Source: a virus
Reading direction: 5' to 3' (one strand)
Virus record (IMG/VR): IMGVR_UViG_3300021093_001700
Location: 1 to 24,380 of that record
Length of the DNA: 24,380 bases
In this document: positions 4,335 through 18,979 of the stretch, one piece after another
Numbering within the stretch: position 1 is the stretch's first letter
Layout of the letters: each line of letters starts with the position of its first letter
Translations under genes and position numbers: made by a program
Notes under the pieces: model-generated
The model's database searches: none
Told to the model about the DNA's origin: nothing
What the model saw: only the letters and a program-made list of their open reading frames with translations

Positions 4335-7300
4335 TTATGCTTTTGGATATGCTGTTTTATTAGGCAATATTGTCTTTCTAGGAAACAACACTTGAAAATC
4401 TTGACTATCAATAGGATTGGGTTGTGGAACAGCACTTGGGAGGTTTATAAATGCTCCAGGGTTAAATGTTGTATCATAGTCATATGTAAGTGATTTATTC
4501 ACTGTGAATCTATCTAATTGGAAATCAATGAGATTAAGCGATATTTTATTACCTATCTCATCTCGCCAGTTATTATTAATATTATATGCTATTTGTTCAG
4601 CATAACTTTTAAAATTATTTCTTATCCAACCGTTTTCAGTTTTTTGTTCTTCAAATTGTTTATAAGTTAACGAATCGTTATTAACTATTATTTTTGCTTC
4701 GCAATATGCTATGACCCATGCTTTTGTAAACCCTAATGTGCTGCCATTTAATTGTTGACTTGACATCCATAGTGGTAGAAGAGCAGCACTACTGTCAACG
4801 CCTAGTACATCTTCAACTTGCTTACGCATATTTTCTAAACTATTTGGATATAATAATCTAGCATAGCCTGGGGATAAGCTTGTATAGAAAGTTGGCTGTC
4901 CTTGATTAGTTTTAAATTTTATATCATCTTGTGTTGATAACCAAAATATTTTATCTTGTGCAAGTATATTGAGTTGAAATGGATAAATGTAACTAGTATA
5001 GATATCTGTAATACTAGTGTACCATGGTCCTAAATTTAAATCTATCCAAAAGGGCCAATTAATTTCTTTACTTACGCTAATTCCTTGGGGGTTCACTAAG
5101 TTGTCTACAATTTCGCTATAAACAACTTCGTAAATAATTTCATTCTTTTCATTTCTTGCGATAGCAGTTTTAAGTGGACCTAAGGTAATATTTCTAAAAT
5201 AATGCTGTATATTCACGCTGGCTATATATTCTGGCAAACTACTAGCTTTAATACCATAGGCATGTACATATGTAACATTTTTTGCTTTTCCAAAATTACT
5301 ATCATTAATACGATATAAATAATTGTTTGGTATTAGAGTTGTATTATCTAATAAACTGTAAATAAGTTCTCTATCAGCAATACTTGGCGTGCATTTCATA
5401 TATAATGATTCGGTCGGCTCAATAAATTTTTGAACCACATTTATTGTAAAGGTTTTTTCTTTTTGTATGTTTAATTTAAAATCTTCGCTATATGCATTTA
5501 CAGTAAATGTATATGGAATAGATATATCTTTTGATTTATAATCATCTGTAGTTTCATATGCTACGTTTCCAACTATATCCCCATTAGATAATAAAGATAA
5601 ATTTTTAGGGAGTGTGTTTGCATCAGTAGTCAATTCATATAGTAATGGTACACTACTGTTTTCAGCCTGTACACGAAATACACTTGTAGTGCCATTAAAT
5701 ATATTACCAAGATTATTTGGAGTGATCCATGTTATGGTATTACTAATATCATTAGTTACTAATATGCTAAAGTTATAGGCAGGACTAATAATACTTGGAT
5801 TATTTGCTTTTCTTACTCTAACAGAAAAATTATATTTGTAAATAGTAGTAATAGGTACGTTTATATTGCCACGTATCCAACCTGTGCTACTATCTCCAAT
5901 TAATTGTGTATCTAGTTCGGTATTATCATCTGTTGGAAAACTAAACAAATATTCTATGGTATCACTATCAAAATCATACCCTAGTATTTTAAATGTAAAA
6001 TAATTATTAGCAAAATACTTTCCAATTGGTGCATTAGTAGTTAAGGGAAATGTATCGCCAGTTATAATACTGCCTTCTGGTAAGACATAGAATCCATAAT
6101 TTGAAACATCTTGGTCTATATTATATGTTTTTGGTCTTGTATTATAGATAATGGGAGTTCTAATATTTCCTACGCCCGTAACTAAATTTTGATTTAATAC
6201 CTGTATACTAAAACTTCTTAAAATATTTCCTAATTCGCTATCTATTCTTAGAGTAAAATTAAATATTTTATTTATTGGAGTAACTTGTGTATTGTCAGGC
6301 AATGTTGCATCCATAATGCCTGTGTCGCTTGAAATTATAAATTCTGGCCCACCCAGTGCTGTACTAATAGTAAATTCTGAGTTGCTAACAATTTTTTTAA
6401 TAAAATATGTAGTACCAGTAATATTTAAAGGATCAAATGTAGCAACACCACCAAACACTACTCCAGAAAATCTTATTGGTCTACCTATCTTAAATCCTAT
6501 AGTAGATAATGCTGTCAGTGTATTTTTTCCATATGTAGTTTTTGTAATAGCAGTATTAATTTGTTCGTAAATCTCTGTTATTACTGGTGCTTCGGCATAG
6601 CCGCGTATTAGCCCTGCCTCGTTTATTTCTAATCCTGGTGGTAATGATCCGCTTGCTATCGCTATACTAGCGGCATACAAATTTTCTGCTGGATTAACAA
6701 ATTCTATTTGATTTGTATACCAAGTGCTATCAAGTGTTGCTTGTAATGCCCCGGCAGGAGTTTCAAAATAAGGAACTAAACTTCCAGAAATAGTCATGCT
6801 AAATGTTCTATCACTAATAAAAGAGTTATTGTCTGTGCAACGAATTACAAAAATATAAGTTTCACTTTCAACATCTTCTGACGGCGTCCCTTGTAATATT
6901 GCACTATTATTTTGTTTGTCATTTACTAAACTTAAACCTAAAGGCAGTTTGCCTGAAATTATTTTGTATGTAAGTCTAGCAGTGGGATATGTTAGAAATG
7001 CAGTACCAGTTCCTGTTGCTGCTCCGGTAGCAATAAACTTTGTACCTATATTATTATTTGGGGCTCCTACAGTGGTAAAGTTTGTTTCTGTTAGAGGATT
7101 AACGCCAGCATTGGTACTTAATATTTCATAAGTATCTCCTGCTGTTAAATTAGTAGCTGATACAGCAGGACTACGGGCTTTAATTAGAATTCCAGGTATA
7201 TTAATATCATTTGGAAAAGTTCCTAAATTCCATGTAACATTATTATAGATGCTTGTATCAGTTACTTGTCTGCCATTTAATTCATAAAAACTAGGTGTTA

Positions 7301-7604
7301 TCCAAACAGGGTTAGGATTTTTAATAGTAATGAAAAAATCTCTTAATGATGTATTTCCTAAATCGTCATATGCTTGTATTGTAAAACCATATACAGTATC
7401 AGCGTTTACAAATTGTGCTGTGCCACTAATTACTCCTAGCACTGACAATACTAAACCAGGAGGTAAATTTTCTGAGTATATTTTATAGAAAATGGTAGTT
7501 GCAGGATAAACAGGAGTAGCAGACAAAGTAATAGGTATTATTAATTTTTGACTTACTATAGTACCTAAATTTCCTGCAGGTGTTACCCAAATTGGATCTG
7601 ACAT
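4335..7604 (-). CDS. Large tail-fibre-like protein with Ig-like (putative He_PIG) domains
   Basis: A 1089-residue secreted-type surface protein without a signal peptide, as expected for a virion part. It opens with WVTPAGNLGTI and repeats the putative Ig (He_PIG-type) signature: ...YKIYSENLPPGLVLSVLGVISGTA (about residues 42-65), KLPLGLSLVNDKQNNSAILQGTP (about 218-240) and SGSLPPGLEINEAGLIRGYA (about 318-337). Further W(V/I)TP-type strand starts include WITPNNLGNIF. A GRPIRFSG...TTYFI...FTIS module near residues 374-410 is related to the two modules of the adjacent 433-residue gene. The last third (about 720-1089) lacks Ig signatures and holds a distinct, Tyr/Trp-rich globular region. The gene lies 6 nt after the collagen-like gene and probably shares its late promoter. 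A host-contact role is inferred from architecture. Confidence 0.75.
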   Translation of the reverse strand: MSDPIWVTPAGNLGTIVSQKLIIPITLSATPVYPATTIFYKIYSENLPPGLVLSVLGVISGTAQFVNADTVYGFTIQAYDDLGNTSLRDFFITIKNPNPVWITPSFYELNGRQVTDTSIYNNVTWNLGTFPNDINIPGILIKARSPAVSATNLTAGDTYEILSTNAGVNPLTETNFTTVGAPNNNIGTKFIATGAATGTGTAFLTYPTARLTYKIISGKLPLGLSLVNDKQNNSAILQGTPSEDVESETYIFVIRCTDNNSFISDRTFSMTISGSLVPYFETPAGALQATLDSTWYTNQIEFVNPAENLYAASIAIASGSLPPGLEINEAGLIRGYAEAPVITEIYEQINTAITKTTYGKNTLTALSTIGFKIGRPIRFSGVVFGGVATFDPLNITGTTYFIKKIVSNSEFTISTALGGPEFIISSDTGIMDATLPDNTQVTPINKIFNFTLRIDSELGNILRSFSIQVLNQNLVTGVGNIRTPIIYNTRPKTYNIDQDVSNYGFYVLPEGSIITGDTFPLTTNAPIGKYFANNYFTFKILGYDFDSDTIEYLFSFPTDDNTELDTQLIGDSSTGWIRGNINVPITTIYKYNFSVRVRKANNPSIISPAYNFSILVTNDISNTITWITPNNLGNIFNGTTSVFRVQAENSSVPLLYELTTDANTLPKNLSLLSNGDIVGNVAYETTDDYKSKDISIPYTFTVNAYSEDFKLNIQKEKTFTINVVQKFIEPTESLYMKCTPSIADRELIYSLLDNTTLIPNNYLYRINDSNFGKAKNVTYVHAYGIKASSLPEYIASVNIQHYFRNITLGPLKTAIARNEKNEIIYEVVYSEIVDNLVNPQGISVSKEINWPFWIDLNLGPWYTSITDIYTSYIYPFQLNILAQDKIFWLSTQDDIKFKTNQGQPTFYTSLSPGYARLLYPNSLENMRKQVEDVLGVDSSAALLPLWMSSQQLNGSTLGFTKAWVIAYCEAKIIVNNDSLTYKQFEEQKTENGWIRNNFKSYAEQIAYNINNNWRDEIGNKISLNLIDFQLDRFTVNKSLTYDYDTTFNPGAFINLPSAVPQPNPIDSQDFQVLFPRKTILPNKTAYPKA

Positions 7605-7610
7605 TTTATA

Positions 7611-8099
7611 TTACCAACTTGTTGTACCTGAGAACTTAGCCCAGGTATTTGCGTCTACACAAATATATAAGTTTCCACCGATATCATATGCAGCCTCTCC
7701 AGCAGTTCCTGGATCAGTATTTGCTGTTGGCGCTGTTGCCCATATTATGCCAGCAGCACCGGTGGCTCCGACGTTACCTTCAGGCCCAGTTGCTCCCGCA
7801 CTTCCAGTGGCTCCTGCTGCCCCTGTAGCACCTGCAGCACCTGCTGCACCAGTTGCTCCCGCACTTCCAGTGGCTCCTGCTGCCCCTGTCGCCCCTGCTG
7901 GACCAGTAGCACCTGTAACATTAGCAAGAATTGATACACCGTTAGCGTAATTATAAACGTTTGCAAAAACACGATTTGCTGTAACATTACCATTAGCATA
8001 ATTTAAATTAGTAATAATATTGCCATTGGCATCAACAACATCGATAGGTGGAATGCCTACTGTGATACCGCCTAGTGAATTAAATGGTTCAGCTGCCAT
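7611..8099 (-). CDS. Collagen-like Gly-X-Y repeat structural protein
   Basis: A 162-residue protein in three parts. An N-terminal segment (about residues 1-60) contains [18 protein letters not shown] and an [19 protein letters not shown] motif. A central run of about 18 Gly-X-Y triplets (about 63-117) is dominated by GAT, GAA, GSA and GPE. A C-terminal globular piece ends with a [18 protein letters not shown] motif of the kind found at the tips of phage fibres. Collagen-like triplets in phage fibres form homotrimeric triple helices. The DNA under the repeat is GC-rich compared with its neighbours and contains a perfect 41-bp direct repeat. An AAGGA Shine-Dalgarno and a GATAAATA late promoter lie upstream. 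It probably forms a short tail fibre or decoration protein together with the next two structural genes. Confidence 0.8.
7786..7889. repeat. Perfect 41-bp direct repeat, 63-nt period, in collagen-like gene
   Basis: Bases 7786-7826 and 7849-7889 are identical over 41 bp and start 63 nt (21 codons) apart, so they stay in frame. They encode the same Gly-X-Y block twice. Such repeats can expand or shrink by slippage or recombination without a frameshift. Confidence 0.9.
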
Positions 8100-14169: not shown

Positions 14170-17100
14170 TTATGACCTTGATGCACGTAGTATTTTTTCT
14201 TGTGTACTTTGTTGATTTTGTAGTATATCGATTACCCTTTCCAATCTTAAAATATACTCTCCGGTAGATTTAACTGTTTGATCGGAAACATGTCTCATCG
14301 CTGTTTCTACTTTTTCTGCTATTTGTTGGTTAATACTTTCAGCATTTGTTAAATTACTTTCCTTTGTTTCTTCCATTTTACTTATTTTATCTAAAATAGT
14401 ATTTGAAATAGATATTTGTTTAATTGAATCATTTTTGGTAATTCCTAATGATCCTTCATAAGATGGATTACCCATGGACATTTGACCTAATTGAGCAAGT
14501 ACACTATTTTTTGCTAATGGCACAACAGCTTCAAGACCGTGCATTTCTACATCATATCCAGACTTAGGTCCTTGTACAATACCGCCTTCTGCCAACTGTG
14601 CGTGTATATGTCCACCTGTTGATTTTTCAGTTCTATTATTGTATTCATCTATTGCGTGGCTAAAGCCCATTGACTTTAGTTGTGCAACAATGTCTCTACC
14701 TTCTTTTACACTTGGCGTGCTAGTTAGTGTAAAATCTACTGCTCTGCCTTTTGTATGTTGACTATTAGGACTGTTCTGTTGATGATATTGATCATTGAAT
14801 GATGAAAAATATTTAAAGTCAGGAATAGTATTTTGTATTTGTTGTGATAAATCTATTAACCTACTATCTACTCTTGCCCCGGGAGCCTGAACATCTCCTT
14901 GTTTTAGTTTAAGTCCTTCTGCTATAAGATCGCCGCGATCTACTCCACTTGATGTGCTTGCTCCTGCTCCACCACTTAGTGGAGTTTTGCCGCTTACTAG
15001 GTCTGCTAGTATCTGAAGTCTTTCGTCAGTTACCTTACTAAATGCTGCGGCATGTTCTCTAGTGATTTGAAGTTTTCTTCTTTGTTCTTCTAAATCATCT
15101 CTACTTTTAACATATTCTTTTTCTAATGCATTTAAAGCTTGAGTGCGGGCACTTACGGATTTTTTTGTTGATGAAATTTTATTTTCTAATTCTGCTAATG
15201 ATTCCTTAGCAGCCTTATCTTCAATATACTTTTCTTTAGCCATTATTGGGCCAAATTCACTAAACCCAACTACTACATCGCGCTCCCTTGTAAATCTATC
15301 GCGCATTTCTTTGGCTTCTTTTTCAAGTCTTTTTAATTCTGCTTCGTCATTTTTATTCCATGCATCCCATAATTTTTGACGTTTTGAGACATAGTCTTTT
15401 GCCATTTCAACTTGGCGTTCATCAAATCCTGCTTCTATTTGTTCTACTGTTTTTGATGGCCCAGTAGTTTCTTCTCCAGGTCGCGCTTCGGCACCCGGTA
15501 CGGCACCAGACTGTGTGGTAACTGTGGTATTTTGTCTAGTTGCTTCTGTATTTGCTTCAATTGCTAATTTTAAGAAATCTTCATTGCGTGTTCTTTGGTC
15601 TGTTAATGTTTGTGATGCAATCGTTGCTGCTTCTGTTGCTTCTTTTGCTTTTTCTGTGATTTCATTGCTATCACTAAAGAATGATTTAATACCATCATAG
15701 TTTTCAATAACGCCCATTAACCCGCCGGCTACTGCTCCTAATCCTGTACCTATAGGACCAAAGACAGAACCCATCAGAGCAAATTGTGCCGCCGAACCTA
15801 TTATTCCACCTGCCGCACTTAATCCTTGCGCGCCCTTTGCATCAACAACGTTTAGGCTTTGTAACATTCCTGCGCCTTGTTGTAGGGCATAACCACCTAC
15901 CATAGCAGCAGCGCCGTGACCTCCTACCGTAGCCATATGGCCCATACGATCTCTAACACCTGCGCCGCTAGTAGGAATAATTCCAGTAGTATTTTCGTCG
16001 CCTAATACTAATCTTCCGAATCTACCTCGTTGTGGTCCACCTGCTTGAGGTCCAGTAGGAGCAACTATGCCTCCTGTGCCCGGTAATGGCATACCTGTGC
16101 CAACGCCGCCTGCCCCTAAAATTCTACCACGAGCCTGTGCCTCTGACATGCCTTGGGCTCGCATTTTTCTATATTGTTTTTGCTGAGCCTTAGTCATGCC
16201 TGTAGAACCTATAGGCATCATAGCGCCGCCACCTACACAGTTACATATTTCTTGTAGGTTAATAACTCTTACCAACATAGCATTTGCTGGTGTTTGACCT
16301 AACTGACCTTGACCTGGACCAGTTAAACGACCAAATCTATCTTTGGTATTACTAAATGGGTTTCTACGTGCTTGCGCACTAGTCATAATACCCATAGCAT
16401 ATGTTGCAGCAAAGGCTGCTGCTGCTAGAACCTTAAAGGAGTCAATAGCATCTTCCATACCAACGGCTAATGGGTTAAAGCGGTCTATTACACGATCTAG
16501 GCCTTGCTGGAACTTTCTTTCCATTGCTTCCATGTTAGCAACGCCTTCCATTAAGGCGTCCCTAGTAGCCTGCTGTGCATCTACACCTTTTTTACCTGCC
16601 TCTAATGCTGCTTGCGCATTTTTTCTTTGACCAGTGACACCTTGCTCTGATGCCATAGTCATTCGTTCAGTGCTTACTCCTATAGTTTTTGCTAATTCAA
16701 TACCGGCTGGACCTAATTCAGCAATGCCGGTACCAAAACGTTGCATAGTCTTGTCAATTGAAGCAGTGTTTTCATTCATTATATTTGCAGTTACAACAGT
16801 GCCTTCTACGCCTGCTTCTAAATCTCTACCTGCTTTTAATACATCTAGACCGCTTACTTGCAATCGCGCAGTGTATTCAGTCATTACCTTACCGCCGCTG
16901 GCAAATGATTGTAGATAGGCTATCTGCGCTTCTTTATCAAATCTTGAAATGCCTTTTATAGCAGTTTGTATATTTTCAACTTGTTGACGTATTCTTTTTT
17001 CAGTATCAAAGTCTCCGGCTCTATTTGCGTCTGATGCTTGTTTTTCAAGCATCATAATTTTCATTTTAATATTTTCATTTGCTGCTGCTAAGTCAAGTGC

Positions 17101-17844
17101 TGCTTGCTGTTGTTTAATATCGGCTCCAGTTAAATCAGCCAATATAACTAAATTCTTCATGTAGGCTTCAGATGATTTTCTTAGATCAGCAACAGGGCGA
17201 TTTAAGTTTATACCTAATGCGTTGGCTTGTTGTAAATATTTGCCGGTGTATTCAAAAACTTCTTCAAATGTAAATCCTAATTTTCTAAATCCAGTCATGT
17301 TTTTGGTGACGATATCACCAAATTTCTGCATACCAGTACCTACACTATCACCGACATTTATAAATGCAGCGCCCGCAGTCTTAGCAGCCTTACCAACAGC
17401 CTGCATTTGGAATGTACTACCACCTGCGGCTTCTGTCACACCTCTTAATGCTTGTGCTGTAAAATGTGCTTGTGCACCTATATCAGCAATCTCATCAAAT
17501 CCTCTACTAATTCTATCAGTCTGAGCAAAGACTTGTTCGATCATAATTGCTGAGGCTTTAGCAGCAGCACCTATACTTTTTCCAAAGACACCCATATCAG
17601 AGGTTAGTTGTCCTACAGTATCAGCCAAGCCTTGGAATAAATTGCCGTATTTGCTGAAACCTTTTTCTGCTGAACTAATGGCGCTAACAAAACTCATGGT
17701 TGCCTTGCCGGCACCCTCGAATGCAACATTCATAGCCTTGCCAAACTTTGAAGTATCGGCTGTTAGTTTAGATTGGATCTTCGACTGTTCAATAATATAA
17801 GCTCTAACGCTTTCTGGGTCGTTTACGTCATATTTTTCTGCCAT
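14170..17844 (-). CDS. Tape-measure-like tail protein with M15-type peptidase domain
   Basis: A 1224-residue protein. The N-terminal 500 residues are helical, Ala/Gly/Ser-rich and low in Cys, with long repeats of small residues. A Gly/Ala-rich hydrophobic stretch (about 640-710) and a charged coiled coil (about 780-960) follow; this is the usual layout of tail tape measures. Near the C-terminus a peptidase M15 / D-Ala-D-Ala carboxypeptidase-like signature is visible: SQHTKGRAVDF gives H1030 and D1037 (H-x6-D), and GGHIHAQ gives H1079-x-H1081, a zinc site for cutting peptidoglycan peptides. T4's tape measure gp29 has about 590 residues and no such domain. It is transcribed away from gp26 from a shared palindromic late promoter. 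It could alternatively be a hub-associated structural lysin. Confidence 0.75.
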   Translation of the reverse strand: MAEKYDVNDPESVRAYIIEQSKIQSKLTADTSKFGKAMNVAFEGAGKATMSFVSAISSAEKGFSKYGNLFQGLADTVGQLTSDMGVFGKSIGAAAKASAIMIEQVFAQTDRISRGFDEIADIGAQAHFTAQALRGVTEAAGGSTFQMQAVGKAAKTAGAAFINVGDSVGTGMQKFGDIVTKNMTGFRKLGFTFEEVFEYTGKYLQQANALGINLNRPVADLRKSSEAYMKNLVILADLTGADIKQQQAALDLAAANENIKMKIMMLEKQASDANRAGDFDTEKRIRQQVENIQTAIKGISRFDKEAQIAYLQSFASGGKVMTEYTARLQVSGLDVLKAGRDLEAGVEGTVVTANIMNENTASIDKTMQRFGTGIAELGPAGIELAKTIGVSTERMTMASEQGVTGQRKNAQAALEAGKKGVDAQQATRDALMEGVANMEAMERKFQQGLDRVIDRFNPLAVGMEDAIDSFKVLAAAAFAATYAMGIMTSAQARRNPFSNTKDRFGRLTGPGQGQLGQTPANAMLVRVINLQEICNCVGGGAMMPIGSTGMTKAQQKQYRKMRAQGMSEAQARGRILGAGGVGTGMPLPGTGGIVAPTGPQAGGPQRGRFGRLVLGDENTTGIIPTSGAGVRDRMGHMATVGGHGAAAMVGGYALQQGAGMLQSLNVVDAKGAQGLSAAGGIIGSAAQFALMGSVFGPIGTGLGAVAGGLMGVIENYDGIKSFFSDSNEITEKAKEATEAATIASQTLTDQRTRNEDFLKLAIEANTEATRQNTTVTTQSGAVPGAEARPGEETTGPSKTVEQIEAGFDERQVEMAKDYVSKRQKLWDAWNKNDEAELKRLEKEAKEMRDRFTRERDVVVGFSEFGPIMAKEKYIEDKAAKESLAELENKISSTKKSVSARTQALNALEKEYVKSRDDLEEQRRKLQITREHAAAFSKVTDERLQILADLVSGKTPLSGGAGASTSSGVDRGDLIAEGLKLKQGDVQAPGARVDSRLIDLSQQIQNTIPDFKYFSSFNDQYHQQNSPNSQHTKGRAVDFTLTSTPSVKEGRDIVAQLKSMGFSHAIDEYNNRTEKSTGGHIHAQLAEGGIVQGPKSGYDVEMHGLEAVVPLAKNSVLAQLGQMSMGNPSYEGSLGITKNDSIKQISISNTILDKISKMEETKESNLTNAESINQQIAEKVETAMRHVSDQTVKSTGEYILRLERVIDILQNQQSTQEKILRASRS

Positions 17845-17877: not shown

Positions 17878-17911
17878 CCAAAATTACACTATTATTGAGG
17901 TTAATCCATTT

Positions 17912-18736
17912 ATGAATACTAATCCTTTAAAACAGTATTTTCGTCGCCCTAGCGTTTATTTAAAACTTCCTAGCGGGGGTCAAGGATATCCAGAAGGTTC
18001 TATCACACTTAGTGATTCAGGTGAACTTCCTGTCTATCCAATGACCGCTATAGATGAAATTACTAGTAAAACTCCAGACGCACTGTTTAATGGTACTGCT
18101 GTTGTTGAAATTATTAAAAGTTGTGTACCAGATATTAAAGATCCATGGGTAATAAAGAATATTGATATTGATAGTATCTTAATTTCTATACGTGCTGCTT
18201 CAGGAGCAGGAAGTATAGATGTGAACACTAAATGCCCAAAGTGTTCAAATGAAGCCATGTATGGTGTTAATTTAGTGAGCGCACTTAATACTATGAAAAG
18301 TGGCGATTATAATAAAGAACTATCAATAAATGATTTAAAAATTAAGTTTAAACCGTTAGATTATCGTGAATTAAATCGATCTAGTTTAGAACAAATGGAG
18401 ATACAAAAACTTTTTACATCAATTGAAGGCACTGAAGATATAGCACAAAAGAATAAGTTAACAGAACAAGCATTACGTGGCCTTACTGATTTAACTATGG
18501 AACTAGTTTCTAAAGCAATAGATTATATAAAAACTCCAGAAACCATAGTGTCTCAGCCTGAATATATTTTAGAATTTTTAAAGAATGTAGATATGAAAGA
18601 TTATGTAACTATACGTGATTATAATGCTAGCCTTCGCTCACAGGCATCTTTAAAACCACTCGATATAAAGTGTACGGAGTGTGGGAACGAGTTTGAACAA
18701 CCGTTTACACTAAACATGTCTGATTTTTTCGGCTAA
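17912..18736 (+). CDS. gp26: Baseplate hub / tail-assembly protein (T4 gp26-like), zero-frame product
   Basis: A 274-residue protein of the T4 gp26 (T4_baseplate) family; T4 gp26 has 208 residues and is needed for baseplate hub assembly. N-terminal features are FRRPSVYLKLPSGG and a MTAIDEI segment. Two Cys pairs, CPKC (108-111) and CTEC (254-257), suggest a split zinc-binding site. The start at 17912 has a GAGG Shine-Dalgarno 11 nt upstream. It is the only confident plus-strand gene and is driven from the divergent late promoter. The reading frame ends FFG-stop, and at the two Phe codons there is a T TTT TTC slippery sequence, where ribosomes probably shift -1 into the downstream gp51-like segment. 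Its place beside the tape-measure gene is that of tail assembly chaperones in many phages. Confidence 0.9.
   Translation: MNTNPLKQYFRRPSVYLKLPSGGQGYPEGSITLSDSGELPVYPMTAIDEITSKTPDALFNGTAVVEIIKSCVPDIKDPWVIKNIDIDSILISIRAASGAGSIDVNTKCPKCSNEAMYGVNLVSALNTMKSGDYNKELSINDLKIKFKPLDYRELNRSSLEQMEIQKLFTSIEGTEDIAQKNKLTEQALRGLTDLTMELVSKAIDYIKTPETIVSQPEYILEFLKNVDMKDYVTIRDYNASLRSQASLKPLDIKCTECGNEFEQPFTLNMSDFFG
18724..18730 (+). other. Slippery heptamer for -1 programmed ribosomal frameshift
   Basis: The heptamer T TTT TTC is in the zero frame of gp26 and fits the X XXY YYZ rule. The zero-frame stop TAA follows at 18734. A stem-loop starts 6 nt after the heptamer (arms 18737-18744 and 18766-18773, GGCTTCTT with AAGAAGCT, one G-T pair, 21-nt loop). 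That spacing is in the usual range for frameshift stimulation. Confidence 0.75.
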
Positions 18737-18960
18737 GGCTTCTTTATCTCGCTCCTGACGAAATTAAGAAGCTCATAGATCAATACGAAAAAGACGTTAA
18801 TACAATTAAAAAAAATGCTCTATCAATAGCATGGTATATGCGTGGTGGTATTTCCTATACAGATGTTTTAAACTTAAGTCAAGAGGAATATGACATGTGT
18901 AATAAATTAATTGAGCAAAATCTTGAAACAACCAAAAAGAGTAATTTACCATTCTTTTAA
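18724..18960 (+). CDS. gp51-like / tail-assembly segment, probably made as a -1 frameshift extension of gp26
   Basis: In the -1 frame relative to gp26 there is an open segment that runs to TAA at 18958-18960. It reads RLRLLYLAPDEIKKLIDQYE and later IAWYMRGGISYTDVL...LETTKKSNLPFF. The W-Y-M-R-G-G and TTKKSNLPFF ending resemble the small gp51-type (baseplate hub assembly) proteins of marine T4-like phages as I remember them. The frame has no ATG, GTG or TTG between its upstream stop (18721) and the conserved part; the first ATG is inside WYMRGG. Separate initiation is therefore unlikely. A shift at the heptamer would give a 349-residue fusion (273 + 76). This mirrors the G/GT pattern of tail assembly chaperones. 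The gp51 naming is less sure than the frameshift. Confidence 0.75.
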   Translation, partial: FFRLRLLYLAPDEIKKLIDQYEKDVNTIKKNALSIAWYMRGGISYTDVLNLSQEEYDMCNKLIEQNLETTKKSNLPFF

Positions 18961-18979
18961 AGTTGTCCTACGGACAACT
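18961..18979 (+). terminator. Perfect 8-bp hairpin after gp26/gp51
   Basis: AGTTGTCC, loop TAC, GGACAACT: a perfect 8-bp stem immediately after the stop at 18960. A T-rich run (TTTCTTTT) comes only about 25 nt later, so it is not a classic intrinsic terminator. It may stop or stabilise the 3' end of the plus-strand transcript. Confidence 0.5.

Follow-up and report, generated by a model that had tools for sequence, protein, structure and literature searches.

Results

Organisation of the gp26 junction

The DNA analysed here (the window) is an IMG/VR virus record of 24,380 bases. On its forward strand gp26 occupies positions 17912-18736, from an ATG at 17912 to a TAA at 18734-18736, and encodes 274 amino acids that probably constitute the short form of a tail assembly chaperone (TAC-N); judging from the sequence, a GAGG at 17897-17900, 11 nt 5′ of the ATG, may serve as its ribosome binding site. 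The 3′ end of the gene reads GAT TTT TTC GGC TAA and includes the slippery heptamer T TTT TTC (18724-18730), with the zero-frame stop one codon beyond it. The -1 frame has a TGA at 18721-18723, just upstream of the heptamer, and is then open for 76 codons (18730-18957) up to a TAA at 18958-18960. This -1 extension (TAC-C, 18730-18960) resembles the C-terminus of gp51, and the predicted product of slippage would continue from F273 of gp26 into the 76 codons, giving 349 amino acids in total. The first ATG of the -1 frame in the window falls within the conserved part of the extension and there is no ATG, GTG or TTG before it. A stem whose arms lie at 18737-18744 and 18766-18773 begins 6 nt past the heptamer. 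An earlier note on this DNA had described the heptamer, the open -1 frame, the startless extension and the stem, all of which are present as described, and the products of 274 and 349 residues that it gave are also those obtained from the coordinates.

Directly 3′ of the -1-frame stop, at 18961-18979, there is a perfect 8-bp hairpin, AGTTGTCC-TAC-GGACAACT, that could be a terminator or an RNA processing signal.

The short form

The gp26 protein matches PF12322 (E 4.5e-20; 72.7 bits, the cut-off being 24.5) and phrog_150, a baseplate hub family (E 5.5e-19). An AF2 model of the short form (pLDDT 88.6) matches predicted T4-like hub assembly proteins well, the best with an E of 5.5e-24. When the same model was compared to the PDB with Foldseek no match was found below E 0.001, and neither with Foldseek nor with VIA-align was a solved chaperone, HK97 gp13 or similar, among the matches listed; the VIA-align rows covered mainly helices 134-230.

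Two CxxC pairs in gp26 (C108 and C111, C254 and C257) show little or no variation across the jumbo set, and similar cysteines are present in T4 gp26 and gp51; this suggests that the short form has a split zinc site made up of the two pairs. In BFVD the fold of the short form is matched, at E values of about 1e-4 to 1e-7, by uncharacterised proteins of 384-548 amino acids from Erwinia phage Special G, Ralstonia phages RP12, RSL1 and RSF1 and Achromobacter phage Motura; these jumbo-phage proteins may be unrecognised tail assembly chaperones.

A chaperone is expected to be absent from virions. The annotation of gp26 as a structural protein in phage CBB counts against the chaperone reading, while in the annotation of PA5oct ESI-MS/MS is noted for the neighbour of gp26 and not for gp26 itself.

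Conservation of the slip site

Two scans of IMG/VR returned at least 102 loci, some of them overlapping or identical. In nearly all of the loci listed gp26 was either the window's own sequence or about 50-58% identical to it, and in two the identity was 31%. Conservation was assessed on the 78 distinct clade sequences among the matches listed, the window's included. The heptamer TTTTTTC is exact in every one of these 78 sequences, and all 77 complete ones have an extension of exactly 76 residues; in the remaining one (L078) the extension leaves the end of the contig after 33 residues. From the matches listed, 66 representatives were taken that share less than 90% nucleotide identity, with a mean pairwise identity of 61%. 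The nine bases ATTTTTTCG are invariant in all 66, and the distance from heptamer to stop is the same in 65. Clade sequences are related by descent and the counts are not independent trials; a mean identity of 61% nevertheless leaves ample room for drift despite shared descent. The conservation of the site is genuine and far from chance.

At the other Phe-Phe pairs of the same loci, TTT TTC is used in 26 of 112 cases (23%), and the full T-TTT-TTC occurs in 10 of the 112.

The -1 extension

It is clear that the -1 frame is under selection as a protein. Its pN/pS is 0.40, compared with 1.06 and 1.58 for the remaining frames, so that purifying selection at the protein level is confined to the -1 frame. 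An AF2 model of the extension is helical, with a pLDDT of 87.7. The window's -1 domain could not be assigned clearly to any family in searches of Pfam, PHROGs and NCBIfam; matches to P22 integrase (E 0.1-0.8) were taken as chance.

These observations bear on the idea that the junction is a neutral leftover, in which two phenylalanines are needed at the end of the protein, TTTTTTC is an accident of codon usage and the -1 frame a gene in decay. A Phe-Phe pair can certainly be kept without frameshifting, as in T4 gp26, which ends EFFELL. However, the low use of TTT TTC at the other pairs, together with the constant length of the -1 frame and the purifying selection on it, make a neutral origin scarcely credible.

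Alternatively, the -1 segment could be a separate gene (gp51) translated by termination and reinitiation at the gp26 stop, which in the window would have to employ a weak start such as ATT or ATA. In Phosso, 121Q and the cyanophages an ATG does overlap or closely trail the stop of gp26, and 17 of the 66 close relatives have an ATG, GTG or TTG ahead of the conserved part. The other 49, including the window, have none, and neither the position nor the kind of the candidate start is conserved, whereas the heptamer and the stem are, although reinitiation requires neither of them. The earlier note had asked whether a start is also lacking in relatives, as it is in most, and had regarded a conserved alternative start as contrary to its proposal; none was seen among the relatives. 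We therefore consider reinitiation to be very unlikely, and programmed frameshifting remains the preferred reading.

A conserved stem downstream of the heptamer

Folding of positions 18731-18800 of the window gave -13.9 kcal/mol, with a z of -1.55 against dinucleotide shuffles. RNAalifold, applied to the junction alignment of the 66 representatives, predicted no pairs and no single consensus structure, perhaps because the pairing is shifted by one base in some sequences; L108, L117 and L129, for example, have good stems of their own that are displaced in this way when folded individually. For this reason the 54 bases 3′ of the heptamer were folded in each representative and compared to a null of permuted synonymous codons of the -1 frame. 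The mean folding energy across the 66 was -14.7 kcal/mol compared to -7.5 kcal/mol in the shuffles, giving a mean z of -2.85, with 56 of the 66 below -2. Three later windows of the -1 frame, used as a control, had mean z values of only -0.43 to -0.60.

For the ten named pairs, 82.4% of cells in the gap-free alignment of the representatives are paired, but sliding the 3′ arm by 1-3 columns leaves only 34-50% of cells paired. Double-sided changes are seen in five of the stem pairs, though the number of pair types is not above the shuffle control (194/500). Individual folds contain the stem in nearly all of the 66. The stem is thus real in the window clade, and both it and the heptamer are kept in relatives, the comparison that the earlier note had proposed. 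Among the more distant annotated jumbo phages, some show no stem as clear as that seen in the window clade. The stem may stimulate slippage.

Conservation of this kind is also informative about a further possibility, that RNA polymerase slips on the T6 run and that mRNAs with an altered number of U residues encode the long form. The run is homopolymeric and in some T4-like phages is extended to T7, as such slippage would favour. Six T residues are, though, a short run for transcriptional slippage, and conservation extends to the base that follows them and to the stem beyond, neither of which would be needed; slippage by the polymerase is accordingly extremely unlikely, even more so than reinitiation, and slippage by the ribosome is again the explanation that we favour.

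The divergent neighbour of gp26

On the reverse strand at 14170-17844, and transcribed away from gp26, is a gene for a protein of 1224 amino acids. Near its C-terminus the protein carries a GGIV..EAVVPL-type motif, GGIVQGPKSGYDVEMHGLEAVVPL, which we take to be of the kind found in tape measure proteins, and on the basis of this motif and its position it is likely to be the tape measure protein. No family match to it was found in Pfam, PHROGs or NCBIfam. T4 gp29 and PF25671, searched for in the relatives, gave no match in any of them, a result that carries no weight either way. A large divergent ORF adjoins gp26 in all 65 relatives among the matches listed. Twenty-five of these ORFs are complete, with lengths of 747-1171 amino acids, and a similar motif was found in six. 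The statement that gp26 lies beside the tape-measure gene is therefore right as to adjacency, but the neighbour is on the opposite strand and its identity as a tape measure protein is only likely. A lambda-type order, with the chaperone gene directly preceding the tape-measure gene on the same strand, was found neither in the window nor in the 65 relatives, all of which have the divergent layout.

Elsewhere on the reverse strand, at 7611-8099, a short protein with collagen-like GATGAAG repeats is encoded, adjoining a large, probably virion-related protein (4335-7604).

Distribution among named phages

The same junction is present in annotated jumbo phages in which gp26 is about 25-34% identical. 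TTTTTTC is found in 13 of 14 such relatives (Phosso, Atu_ph07, PA5oct, Munch, Hallingskeid, BF, 121Q, RaK2, SCTP-2, Vibrio 2.275.O, GAP32, CBB and XaC1) and the fourteenth, XacN1, has TTTTTTT. In the records of annotated relatives the -1 domain appears as a separate hypothetical protein, is started at an internal ATG or is omitted (RaK2 and PA5oct are examples). A literature search found no papers on frameshifting in RaK2-like phages.

OLIVR5 has the same junction layout, as do the cyanophages S-PM2 and P-SSM2 and phage KVP40, with TTTTTTC, and Cr30, phiM12 and HTVC008M, with TTTTTTT. The slip site therefore runs through much of the T4 superfamily. Some 9-10 nt upstream of it, S-PM2, P-SSM2 and Cr30 (L047, L046 and L049) have a GGAGGG, a Shine-Dalgarno-like possible stimulator; the window clade is without this element and has the downstream stem instead, and different lineages may use different stimulators.

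Relation to T4 gp26 and gp51

T4 gene 26 ends GAG TTC TTT GAG, with no heptamer and an immediate stop in the -1 frame. T4 encodes a full-length gp51, and the absence of the heptamer is what the earlier note had suggested looking for in genomes where gp51 is separate. Both T4 proteins match PF12322 (gp26, E 8.8e-64; gp51, E 3.9e-52), and gp51 has a further match, to phrog_634, in its C-terminal part. Since gp51 combines these two matches it looks like a domain of the gp26 type to which an extension has been added, that is, like the long form encoded by a gene of its own.

With hhalign, the jumbo extension aligned to the extensions of other T4-like phages at 64.9% (E 6e-5), and these in turn to the C-terminus of T4 gp51 at 87.2% (E 4e-6), while the direct comparison of the jumbo extension with the gp51 C-terminus gave 6.8% and was not significant. 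The description of the -1 segment as gp51-like consequently appears to hold for the C-terminal extension of gp51, by a probable, weak homology that passes through intermediates, and not for gp51 as a whole.

Discussion

We conclude that gp26 and the -1 frame very probably belong to a single gene for a tail assembly chaperone, in which a programmed -1 ribosomal frameshift gives a minor long form. This is what the earlier note had put forward, and it is supported by the heptamer, the stem, the selection on the -1 frame and the contrast with T4. Most ribosomes would stop at 18734-18736 and release the short form. The stem would slow a minority of them, and these would slip back one base at T TTT TTC, with both tRNAs able to re-pair on TTT TTT, and go on to make the long form with its helical C-terminal domain. 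By analogy with lambda gpG and gpGT, many short and few long copies might then coat the tape-measure protein, the C-terminal domain recruiting the tube protein so that assembly of the tube begins.

The slip site is so widespread in the T4 superfamily that the two-gene arrangement of T4 itself looks derived. We lean, by a little, towards a wider scheme for the jumbo clade in which the chaperone and tape-measure genes diverge from a short intergenic region that they share, the proportions of short chaperone, long chaperone and tape measure being set by the frameshift and a divergent pair of promoters rather than by a single operon, and in which T4 genes 26 and 51 are the derived state, duplication having replaced frameshifting.

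These findings correct the annotation of a jumbo-phage group that is widely distributed and includes RaK2, 121Q, PA5oct, Munch and GAP32 as well as several hundred IMG/VR stretches. The compact, conserved slip site and stem also offer a test case for how phages set the ratio of their chaperones.

Comparison with known systems

In lambda the genes G and T precede the tape-measure gene H and share its orientation. As in lambda gpG/gpGT, the window has a -1 frameshift site near the end of the short form and a minor long form, as predicted, with an extra C-terminal domain; here, however, the chaperone gene and the likely tape-measure gene are divergent. The lambda proteins gpG and gpGT are described as occurring in a 30:1 ratio, with the G part on the tape measure, while recruitment of the tube protein falls to the T part (PMC5009743). 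The Vandenendeviridae and Andersonviridae, the group of phage Adele, likewise have a single gene with a conserved poly-T -1 site, the downstream part of which is usually annotated as a hypothetical protein; they differ in that the site is GTTTTT and the tape-measure gene is downstream, and the account of the site in that paper mentions no stem (PMC12846349).

The window clade shares with the T4-type chaperones a PF12322 short form and a (here predicted) long form that consists of that domain and a C-terminal extension, and with the frameshifting T4-like groups a poly-T -1 slip site that ends the short form. The abstract of the 2022 study of the T4-like chaperones reportedly names T4 genes 26 and 51 and describes frameshifting as conserved in several T4-like groups. 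The recasting of gp26 and gp51 as a chaperone pair, which the earlier note had offered as a revision, is upheld as a reading but is not new. That T4-like tail assembly chaperones had been identified by Vladimirov, Gautam and Davidson (Virology 2022, 566:9-15) is cited both in PMC10885494 and in PMC12846349, the latter, on Adele, referring to it in connection with poly-T sites in the chaperone genes of T4-like phages; the former, on PRFect, states that some T4-like phages have one short and one longer fusion gene and no frameshifting. The general idea is therefore already published, and set against the 2022 work as it is known from these citing papers, the additions made here are the jumbo clade, the strength of the conservation, the conserved stem and the divergent layout. 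T4 has separate paralogous genes for the short form (26) and the long form (51), whereas in the window and its jumbo relatives a single gene with a predicted frameshift serves for both; the window clade further differs from T4 in its conserved downstream stem and in a chaperone gene that points away from the likely tape-measure gene.
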